Shown here piece after piece: positions 3,174 through 4,713 of a stretch of DNA of 9,832 nucleotides. A model generated the notes under the pieces. It did not search any database and was not told where the DNA came from. It saw only the letters and a list, made by a program, of their open reading frames with translations. The translations under genes were made by a program, and so were the position numbers. Source of the stretch: Clostridia bacterium (lineage in GTDB: Bacteria > Bacillota_A > Clostridia > UMGS1883 > HGM11501); NCBI GenBank assembly GCA_017536285.1, contig JAFXHP010000043.1, positions 1 through 9,832 on the forward strand. Reading direction: 5' to 3'. The number at the start of each line of letters is the position of its first letter. Within the stretch, counting starts at the first letter, position 1.

Positions 3174-3668
3174 ATGAAAAATGCATTAAAAATTATCGGA
3201 GTAGTTTTGCTCCTTATATTCATAGCACTCTGTTTCGGACTTAACGCCTCTCAGAAAGGATATCAAATTACGCTTTCCTGCTTCTTAGAGGGAACAACAA
3301 GGCACCTTTCCCCAGACTTTGCCATGAATATCGGAACCTTTGATCAGATAATGAGTATAGTTTATATCATCGGCTGGTTCGTCATCGCTTTCTTTTCAGG
3401 CAAGAACGAATGGAAAAATATTTTCCGCGGCATGATGATTTATTCAAGCCTTCCTTTTATCGGTCTTTTCGGCTACTTCTTCCTTCAAAAGGGAATGAAA
3501 CTGGGCATCATGATGCTTATGCCCCTTATCTGGGGGTATCCCTTCTTCCCCGTAATCATAACCGAAAGCAGTATTGATTCAATCATAACACCCCTCGGCA
3601 TAATGATGTTTGTAATGCCTATCGGAGCCTTAATCGCAAGAGCCGTTGCAAAGAAAATACAGTTTTAA
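3174..3668 (+). CDS. Small multi-pass membrane protein of unknown function
   Basis: I do not recognise a family for this 164-residue protein. It begins with a hydrophobic segment (about residues 6-23, IIGVVLLLIFIALCFGL), followed by a short polar loop of about 30 residues. Three or four more hydrophobic segments follow (about 57-75, 87-104, 110-128 and 137-156), and it ends with a basic tail (ARAVAKKIQF). It is thus an integral cytoplasmic-membrane protein with little soluble mass and no visible catalytic motif. The ribosome binding site AAGGAG (3161-3166) overlaps the TAA of topB (3160-3162), and the start follows 7 nt later. It therefore belongs to the topB transcript and is probably translationally coupled. 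Its stop codon touches the terminator at 3668. A functional link to topoisomerase III is not implied by the sequence alone. Confidence 0.78.
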   Translation: MKNALKIIGVVLLLIFIALCFGLNASQKGYQITLSCFLEGTTRHLSPDFAMNIGTFDQIMSIVYIIGWFVIAFFSGKNEWKNIFRGMMIYSSLPFIGLFGYFFLQKGMKLGIMMLMPLIWGYPFFPVIITESSIDSIITPLGIMMFVMPIGALIARAVAKKIQF

Positions 3669-3706
3669 AAAACTTCCGCATCCATTGGATGCGGAAGTTT
3701 TTATTT
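3668..3706. terminator. Bidirectional terminator between converging transcription units
   Basis: A 16-bp stem (3668-3683 with 3687-3702) has the core ACTTCCGCATCC / GGATGCGGAAGT and a 3-nt loop. The stem ends in a T-run on the plus strand and, because its other arm starts with A-residues, also on the minus strand. It serves the topB unit from the left and the transposase-ending operon from the right. The two flanking stop codons (3666-3668 on plus, 3703-3701 on minus) touch its ends. Confidence 0.93.
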
Positions 3707-4198
3707 GTAAAAGCAATCTCTTTCCCATTTTAAGGGATTGGTTTCAATGTACTCTGCTATTTTCGTATAATCCTTTTCACTTCTGATAATGTGATCGTGG
3801 AAGGAACGCTGCCAGATGTTTTCTCCGAATTCCTTATTGCAAAACCGCTTAAATGTTGAAACAAAATTTGCTATAACCGAATTAGTAGGGGACGGCGTCC
3901 TCGACGTCCCGTTTTCACAACATTTTACTGATAAAAGAAAATGTATATGATTAGGCATAATTACATATCTGTCAACAGAGACATATTCATAAAATCCATT
4001 CATCTGATTTATATATTTGTCTGCAATTTTTCCGTAACCGGTAAATTTATTCTGCGGGACGTCGAGGACGCCGTCCCCTACAAATTCAGACAGCAGACAT
4101 TTTCTGTCCCGTATGCATATCGTAATGAAATATGCCCCGGGAGCCGAATAATCATATCCTTTAAGCCTTGCAGGTTTTCTTTTAACAAAATCCGTCAT
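3701..4198 (-). CDS. REP-associated tyrosine transposase (RAYT, Y1/HUH superfamily)
   Basis: This is a 165-residue single-domain HUH nuclease of the IS200/IS605-related RAYT type, which cuts single-stranded DNA at palindromic repeats. Family marks are LKGYDYSAPGAYFITIC (12-28), the metal-binding HUH pair H84/H86 in IMPNHIHFLL, WQRSFHDHIIRSEKDY (129-144), and the probable nucleophile Y150 in EYIETNP. I chose the ATG at 4198 because it overlaps the stop of the upstream acetyltransferase gene as ATGA, like the two junctions before it. A TTG at 4216 would add six residues. It has no strong ribosome binding site and probably relies on coupling. Two inverted copies of a 27-nt repeat lie inside the gene and are translated in frame as V40-P48 (VGDGVLDVP) and N96-T105 (NGTSRTPSPT). 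Its stop abuts the shared terminator. The gene looks intact. Confidence 0.92.
   Translation of the reverse strand: MTDFVKRKPARLKGYDYSAPGAYFITICIRDRKCLLSEFVGDGVLDVPQNKFTGYGKIADKYINQMNGFYEYVSVDRYVIMPNHIHFLLSVKCCENGTSRTPSPTNSVIANFVSTFKRFCNKEFGENIWQRSFHDHIIRSEKDYTKIAEYIETNPLKWERDCFYK
3885..3911 (-). repeat. 27-nt REP-like repeat inside the transposase gene, copy 1
   Basis: On the plus strand this copy begins GTAGGGGACGG and ends GACGTCCCG. It is the exact reverse complement of 4055-4081 over all 27 bases, and identity stops sharply at both ends. Internally GGGACG (3889-3894) can pair with CGTCCC (3905-3910) to form a 6-bp hairpin, and GGAC/GTCC (3890-3893 with 3897-3900) is an alternative fold. 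In the gene's direction it encodes N96-T105 of the transposase. Confidence 0.88.
4055..4081 (+). repeat. 27-nt REP-like repeat inside the transposase gene, copy 2 (inverted)
   Basis: This is the inverted partner of 3885-3911, identical over 27 bases, with 143 nt between the copies. In the gene's direction it is read as V40-P48 (VGDGVLDVP), between the CLLSE strand and the GYGKIADKYI helix. Together the copies could form a 27-bp stem in DNA or mRNA, placing the codons for the H84/H86 motif in the loop. Confidence 0.88.
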
Positions 4199-4713
4199 AT
4201 CTTTTTCTCTAAACAAACAAGTTTTACTTTTCCAAGGCCGTTAAAGTCGCTTTCAACTATTCCCACTTCTTTATACCCAAGCTTTTTGTAAAGACTGCGG
4301 GCAGCCTTGTTTCTTTCGTTGGTGTCAAGGCGTAAATCCTTGACGCCCATTTTCTTTCCCATAGCCTCGTAAAAGCGAATAAACTCCGTTCCGTAACCGC
4401 ATCCCGATGCTGAAGGACTTACCGTAAGAGTATGAATTACCAAAACTTCTTCTCTTTTTGCTTCAATTTCCCAGGAGGCTTTATCATATCCGTCTGCCTC
4501 CTTTTGATTTATTACAGCAGAGGCTAAAATCTCTCCGTTCTCCTCAAGGACATAGAGTGTCCCTTCTGAAAGTGCGGCAAGTGCGTTTTTTTCCACAGGA
4601 TAAATGCCTTTTATCCATCCGGTGGTGATTTTTCCTGCCTCTTCAAGGGATAAAATTTCTTCATATATAGAAACTATTTGGGAAATATCGCAATCTTTAG
4701 CTCTACGTATCAT
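4195..4713 (-). CDS. GNAT family N-acetyltransferase
   Basis: This is a 172-residue cytoplasmic acetyltransferase predicted to move an acetyl group from acetyl-CoA to an amine; the substrate is unknown. The fold is visible along its length. The N-terminal IRRAKDCDISQIVSIYEEI (2-20) is the usual beta1-alpha1. VIHTLTVSP (92-100) is beta4. SASGCGYGTEFIRFYE (101-116) is the acetyl-CoA pyrophosphate-binding turn and helix, with G104, G106 and G108. LDTNERNKAARSLYKKLGY (129-147) is the typical beta5-alpha4. The long segment between residues 20 and 50 may form the acceptor site. The start ATG overlaps the TGA of the HAD gene as ATGA, with GGAGA 7 nt upstream. Its own TGA overlaps the start of the transposase gene in the same way. 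It is the fourth gene of the operon driven from 7101-7129. Confidence 0.9.
   Translation of the reverse strand: MIRRAKDCDISQIVSIYEEILSLEEAGKITTGWIKGIYPVEKNALAALSEGTLYVLEENGEILASAVINQKEADGYDKASWEIEAKREEVLVIHTLTVSPSASGCGYGTEFIRFYEAMGKKMGVKDLRLDTNERNKAARSLYKKLGYKEVGIVESDFNGLGKVKLVCLEKKI

Follow-up and report, generated by a model that had tools for sequence, protein, structure and literature searches.

An outward-facing inverted pair of REP-type hairpins read in frame within a RAYT gene of a Clostridia bacterium

Each TnpAREP has its own REP family (main text of PMC6006769), and in the canonical REPtron, for example that of E. coli TnpAREP (4er8), the REPs flank the transposase gene. In the window (the whole 9,832-nt stretch analysed, from a probable gut Clostridia bacterium), two copies of a REP-like repeat lie inside the transposase gene itself. 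Why would such a gene hold an exact inverted pair of these repeats within its coding sequence, and is it the peptide, the RNA or the DNA that is kept?

The transposase gene and its inverted pair

The RAYT (TnpAREP) gene (3701..4198, minus strand) encodes 165 aa from an ATG, the start used in the database copy P0001, and its reading frame remained open up to a TTG at 4216 (3701-4216, minus strand). The HUH motif NHIH (residues 83-86; 3941..3952, minus strand) was located between the two repeat arms; N83, H84 and H86 were invariant in the homologue alignment and I85 nearly so. The probable catalytic tyrosine, Y150 in YIETNP (3749..3751, minus strand), was assigned by motif as worded in PMC6006769 and was also invariant. 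NCBIfam NF047646 (RAYT) scored 64.6 bits, below its curated cut-off of 80, and Pfam PF01797 scored 21.3 against a cut-off of 23. Several features of RAYT group 4 (TnpAREP subclass 2.4) were found in the gene: NHIH fits the HuH motif NH[IFV]H, W129 Q130 gives the W then Q, residues 96-105 form the variable insertion between beta3 and alphaC, and REPs lie inside the tnpA gene with the frame kept. The Y motif YIETNP is one residue off the printed subclass 2.4 consensus, YIxNNP (PMC6006769). The assignment of the gene to the RAYTs in an earlier, sequence-only reading was borne out, showing a Y1 REP-associated transposase; as part of the explanation preferred below, its product is probably a single-strand REP endonuclease of group 4 (subclass 2.4) or a close relative. 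Around the gene, simple scans picked up four promoter-like sites against 2.1 expected and no terminator-like site.

Direct reading confirmed that the 27 bp at 3885-3911 are the exact reverse complement of those at 4055-4081, and this pair headed the window's inverted-pair list. The arm sequence, GTAGGGGACGGCGTCCTCGACGTCCCG, was present in opposite orientations, and exact identity stopped at 27 nt on either side; the calculated chance expectation of such a pair in 9.8 kb is about 3e-9. Arm 1 (4055..4081, minus strand) has its GTAG strand on the coding strand and supplies codons 40-48 (VGDGVLDVP), in the loop before the first long helix. Arm 2 (3885..3911, plus strand) has its GTAG strand on the non-coding strand and supplies codons 96-105 (NGTSRTPSPT), in the loop between strand 84-91 and helix 108-124 of the structure model, where both arm-encoded loops were of low confidence. 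Both arms had the 5' GTAG foot and hairpin of the REP family, and each was predicted to form, as single-stranded DNA, a stem of 6 bp and 2 bp separated by a G.A mismatch (-9.9 kcal/mol for the GTAG strand and -7.2 kcal/mol for the other). The sequence-only reading was therefore right about the exact pair, the hairpin in each arm, their REP-like character and their in-frame translation.

The inter-arm stretch (3912..4054, 143 nt) is the inside of a REPIN-like bracket and contains the HUH codons. The GTAG tags of the pair pointed outward, so that on either DNA strand of the gene a single hairpin had the orientation that can be recognised. At the stem threshold used, the 9832-base window had no further GTAG hairpin, and no REP flanked the transposase gene there. 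E. coli TnpAREP requires GTAG plus the hairpin and cleaves at CT, as described in passages of PMC8266576, and the hairpin on each strand of the window gene has the orientation that this enzyme recognises. This arrangement is consistent with cis autoregulation, in which the enzyme would bind its gene wherever single strands are exposed and restrain its own copying or expression; the arms lie mid-gene, however, and not at the promoter, making such control unlikely.

A 35-bp hairpin was also observed at 3668-3702, in a single copy. The syntenic locus L001 has two (L001:3518-4800), with about 1.2 kb extra between them that holds a secreted-protein-like and an HTH-like gene (named by eye).

The pair among relatives and paralogues

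In an alignment of the best 120 of 7761 relatives listed in a protein search, the two loop peptides co-varied in many rows; VGDGVLDVP occurred with GTSRTPSPT, and VGTGVLDCP with GQSRTPVPT or GPSGTPVPT. A set of 81 genes was then compared, comprising the window gene and 80 loci (the best 80 of 168 from a genome scan), with a pair called when inverted copies had at least 19/27 matches. The inverted in-gene pair was present in 45 of the 81 genes, 44 of them with the two-loop layout and one (L079) with both inverted copies in the second loop; 36 genes had no pair above the threshold. Counted by hairpins, 42/81 genes had outward GTAG hairpins in both loops, one (L027) had them inward and 18 had none at all, and the remainder were partial or interrupted genes, or carried either a single arm or, in the second loop, a double-foot REP. 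L046 aside, hairpins occupied both loops in 43 genes, and the layout was accordingly outward in 42 of these. Two relatives of 37-39% identity (L065 and L066) had flanking REPs, short loops and no in-gene copy. Presence of the pair changed at least 15 times on a 70-row tree that omitted short rows and scored L008 and genes with one or a decayed arm as without. Judging by these genes, the pair is dispensable for the family as a whole, since 36/81 lacked a pair above the threshold and 18/81 lacked any such hairpin.

Loop lengths, taken from an alignment without eight rows that had internal stops, supported the earlier claim that the arms are insertions in loops. The first loop had 15 residues in 16 of 29 full-length homologues without the pair and at least 18 residues in two-loop pair genes, as expected for insertions; the other 13 pairless homologues also had longer loops, some with a single or decayed REP and some (L045, L076) with none seen. 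Other loop architectures were observed as well. The first loop of L059 (L059:3118-3300) contained three in-frame REP copies at a spacing of 78 nt, the coding sequence that separates them being itself repeated, and double-foot REPs (GTAG...CTAC) were located in or near the second loop in L049, L054, L056, L063 and probably L064, in records from Patescibacteria, Anaerolineae, Bacteroidales and Gracilibacteria.

The arms of one gene matched each other closely. Among 41 genes (the 45 pair genes minus L079 and the internal-stop genes L002, L004 and L032), the two arms differed on average at 1.34/24 positions, with 19 exact pairs, compared with 9.64/24 between genes at 50-65% core identity; none of 2000 permutations reached the observed sum. 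When only the nearest relatives were compared, a gene's own arm was closer in 22 genes, farther in 14 and tied in 5; the result is less clear because genes so closely related have a REP type in common. Paralogues within one genome are the better control. In 58 RAYT regions from 18 Clostridia genomes, taken from 78 matches to P0001 after omission of short or split matches and of G007:C19 (whose arms were taken as L008), the inverted in-gene pair was called at 17/24 matches or more and was found in 50. The within-gene difference was on average 1.18/24 (23 exact), and arms of paralogues in one genome differed at 9.31/24 (134 comparisons). The own partner was closer than the paralogue's arm in 47 of 48 cases, tied in one and farther in none. 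Paralogues may share a repeat type, as in G004, where five fetched RAYT regions had five pairs of four types. Arm subfamilies other than that of the window include the GGGACA, GGGGTCG and GGGGCGATTC types.

What is kept, and how the arms are renewed

The reading frames of the arms varied among the 45 pair genes. Arm 1 was read as GTA|GGG in 38, as xGT|AGG in 6 and in the TAG-meeting frame in one (L032, with an internal stop); arm 2 was read mainly in two frames (35 and 9 genes). In four gene pairs whose remaining DNA was 29-34% different, the arms differed at only 1-2/48 sites. Across 11 gene pairs sharing a REP type, the arms were by percentage more alike than the rest in 10, although the counts are small; L026 and L034 differed at 4/48 arm sites and 23/429 others, the arms being worse conserved, and the window and L001 differed at 2/48 and 22/447, in effect equally. 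The DNA repeat, rather than the peptide, seems to be what is kept.

Within single genes, 28 of 37 stem positions that differed between the arms were compensated inside the arm, and 24 further differences lay in the loops. Four genes (L016, L030, L044 and L079) differed between arms at 4-6 stem positions and kept both hairpins at 7-9 bp, and the first three had two good hairpins with a poor mutual fit. Because stem differences were mostly compensated inside the arm, the conserved unit looks like each hairpin and not the 27-bp duplex. These results weakened the earlier proposal that a 27-bp mRNA stem around the HUH codons could hold back translation or serve as a site for RNase III cleavage. The predicted mRNA fold did contain the inter-arm stem (z-score -7.0, with 0/100 shuffles as stable), but compensation within an arm gives inter-arm pairing no protection, the four genes retained their hairpins despite the stem differences, and the conserved GTAG tag would have no role in an mRNA stem. 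Control at the RNA level is thus very improbable.

The repeat was also expected elsewhere in the genome. Twenty-six genomes were each searched with a repeat type found in one of the genome's RAYTs, allowing up to 3 mismatches and thus including neighbouring subfamilies, and matches beyond the pair were found in 23 of the 26; backward-read control queries gave 0 matches. Counts were 12 in G002, 22 each in G003, G016 and G020, 33 in G014, 37 in G021, 20 in G023, 29 in G028 and 39 in G034, and the extra matches in G022 and G027 were only variants with 2-3 mismatches. In most relatives examined, the arms belong to a repeat type with further copies. Three genomes (G001, G007 and G030) had the in-gene pair only, with no further match at up to 3 mismatches. 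One of them is the nearest relative, G001 (93% identical protein; syntenic with the window at 79-90% nucleotide identity), where 2/2 window-type matches were inside the gene. The expectation of copies elsewhere was thus upheld in most relatives but not in the nearest one, where half of the outcome that had been named as refuting, a 27-mer found nowhere else, was observed. Two other RAYTs of G001 had 7 and 4 further matches, ten of the eleven being 2-mismatch variants, and for this reason the absence of the window type from G001 is probably not an assembly gap.

Copy positions were checked in two genomes. In R. bicirculans (G014), 23 of the 33 copies lay in fetched stretches; the RAYT itself contained 2 of these, and the other 21 overlapped no RAYT match. 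The ACCGGCG type accounted for 34/50 matches in G004, and many of these formed REPIN-like elements of 137-139 bp; this type was absent from all five RAYT regions fetched from the incomplete assembly. A repeat type was often missing from genomes whose RAYT has another type (0 matches in 4/9), and G020 had 33 matches of a type other than that of its RAYT. The 137-139 bp elements of G004 looked mobile, with two inverted REPs around a conserved AT-rich core in 13 copies and both orientations (loci L123, L125, L127, L130, L132, L135-L138 and L140). An origin as cut-down RAYT genes was rejected, as 16 cores gave no blastn-short match (E <=0.01) to four G004 RAYT genes. In G020, an array with a period of about 98 nt and alternating REP types was observed (L203:387-1070).

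The borders of the arms were sharp. Across the 45 genes, outward flank identity was 0.56 at offsets 1-2 and 0.11-0.36 thereafter, and inward identity past position 27 was 0.11-0.33. Broad conversion tracts were rejected as the general homogeniser, with flank identity near chance beyond 2 nt, and were retained for L008 only. Arms of two REP subfamilies occurred in one gene in L016, G008:C18 and G020:C24a. The end of identity at the REP border and these mixed arms fit replacement of arms by whole REP units. In L008 (L008:3115-3409), a tract of 57 nt was common to both arms and took in a tandem 27-nt unit with a foot other than GTAG, and the first loop had one repeat unit more; the long shared tract, together with an outer REP that had no other match in its genome (G007), suggests copying from arm to arm. 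Replication template switching between inverted arms, which would keep them identical without selection, could account for this tract, its non-GTAG tandem foot and the unmatched outer REP. As a general account it is distinctly unlikely, because tracts in the 45 genes mostly end at the REP edge and the copies outside the gene and the compensated differences would be left unexplained.

A passive relic would be formed if REPs had inserted in two tolerant loops of an ancestral RAYT and been overwritten by abundant genomic REPs, giving matched arms with no in-gene function. The low-confidence loops of the structure model, the two-subfamily arms of L016 and G008:C18, the arms of the window and L001 drifting like the rest of the gene, and the in-frame entry of REPs into other genes (passages of PMC3733652) all agree with it. 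This origin nevertheless seems rather unlikely, since it does not predict the outward layout in 42/43 genes, arms that are alike even in genomes that yielded no further copies (G007 and G030, and the window type in G001 at 22/24), or an own arm that was farther than the paralogue's in 0/48.

The comparisons show that the arms are GTAG hairpins, that they are conserved as DNA rather than as peptide, and that the two arms of a gene resemble each other more than they do those of paralogous RAYTs in that genome. We favour, with a probability of about 0.58, an explanation in which the enzyme's own cognate REP supplies the coding sequence of the two loops in the form of an outward-GTAG inverted pair, a portable substrate copy kept as DNA. 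The encoded protein would bind and nick the in-gene GTAG hairpins, and the pair would be a substrate copy inseparable from the enzyme, travelling with it and able to seed a new REP population. After a shift in REP specificity, the arms would be renewed as whole REP units. In the window lineage, the dispersed family seems either to have been lost or to have yet to form, which would leave the in-gene pair alone. The pair-only genomes G001, G007 and G030 count against the portable-substrate explanation, as do the arms of the window and L001, conserved no better than the rest as for a relic; its support was lowered slightly by the G004 repeat type for which no in-gene pair was seen and by the comparison of L026 with L034. 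A bolder version is that the pair is an active self-target: the RAYT would act on its own coding sequence, and REP-precise strand transfer would rewrite both loops when the REP family changes. The gene would then be enzyme, specificity record and founder copy at once, and DNA recognition, not protein function, would dictate its loops; we hold this version only tentatively and think it rather unlikely. The alternatives considered here are not mutually exclusive.

Known systems and meaning

In-frame REPs inside RAYT genes are already published, and the observation is not new in kind; according to the main text of Quentin et al. 2018 (PMC6006769), such REPs occur in subclass 2.4 genes, generally between HuH and Y. 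That subclass and the window gene share NHIH and WQ, the beta3-alphaC insertion, a short C-terminus and in-frame REPs. In the subclass as described there, mostly from Cyanobacteria and Bacteroidetes, the insertions occur beside flanking REPs, whereas the window has an inverted matched pair, one arm before HUH and one after, with no REP at its flanks. Neither an inverted REP pair that brackets the HUH codons nor gene-specific matching of its arms is described in the passages of PMC6006769 covered here (Figure S10 aside), and no title or abstract opening in the literature searches describes the paired, concerted arrangement.

The canonical REPtron and the window share the Y1 HUH fold, a GTAG hairpin substrate (predicted here) and a mismatched stem; its REPs flank the gene, as in L065 and L066, and those of the window are inside. 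A REPIN, defined in passages of PMC3116915 as an inverted REP doublet, similarly has two inverted REPs around a spacer, but the spacer in the window is essential coding sequence, and the gene would not survive excision. GTAG REPs and intragenic REPs have been described by Di Nocera et al. 2013 (passages of PMC3733652), and these, like Rickettsia palindromic elements, resemble the window pair as palindromes read in frame in proteins. Unlike the window pair, they lie, in those passages, in scattered genes other than the cognate transposase and have no matched partner.

These genes bear on how REP families originate, keep in step with their RAYT and spread from one species to another. An in-gene cognate REP would be a readable tag of the substrate, so that the gene by itself would suffice to match enzyme with REP. 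Changes of specificity could be counted on a tree, and REP recognition could be tested through recoded loops. The family may also offer a clear case of a protein sequence seemingly set by a constraint at the level of DNA.
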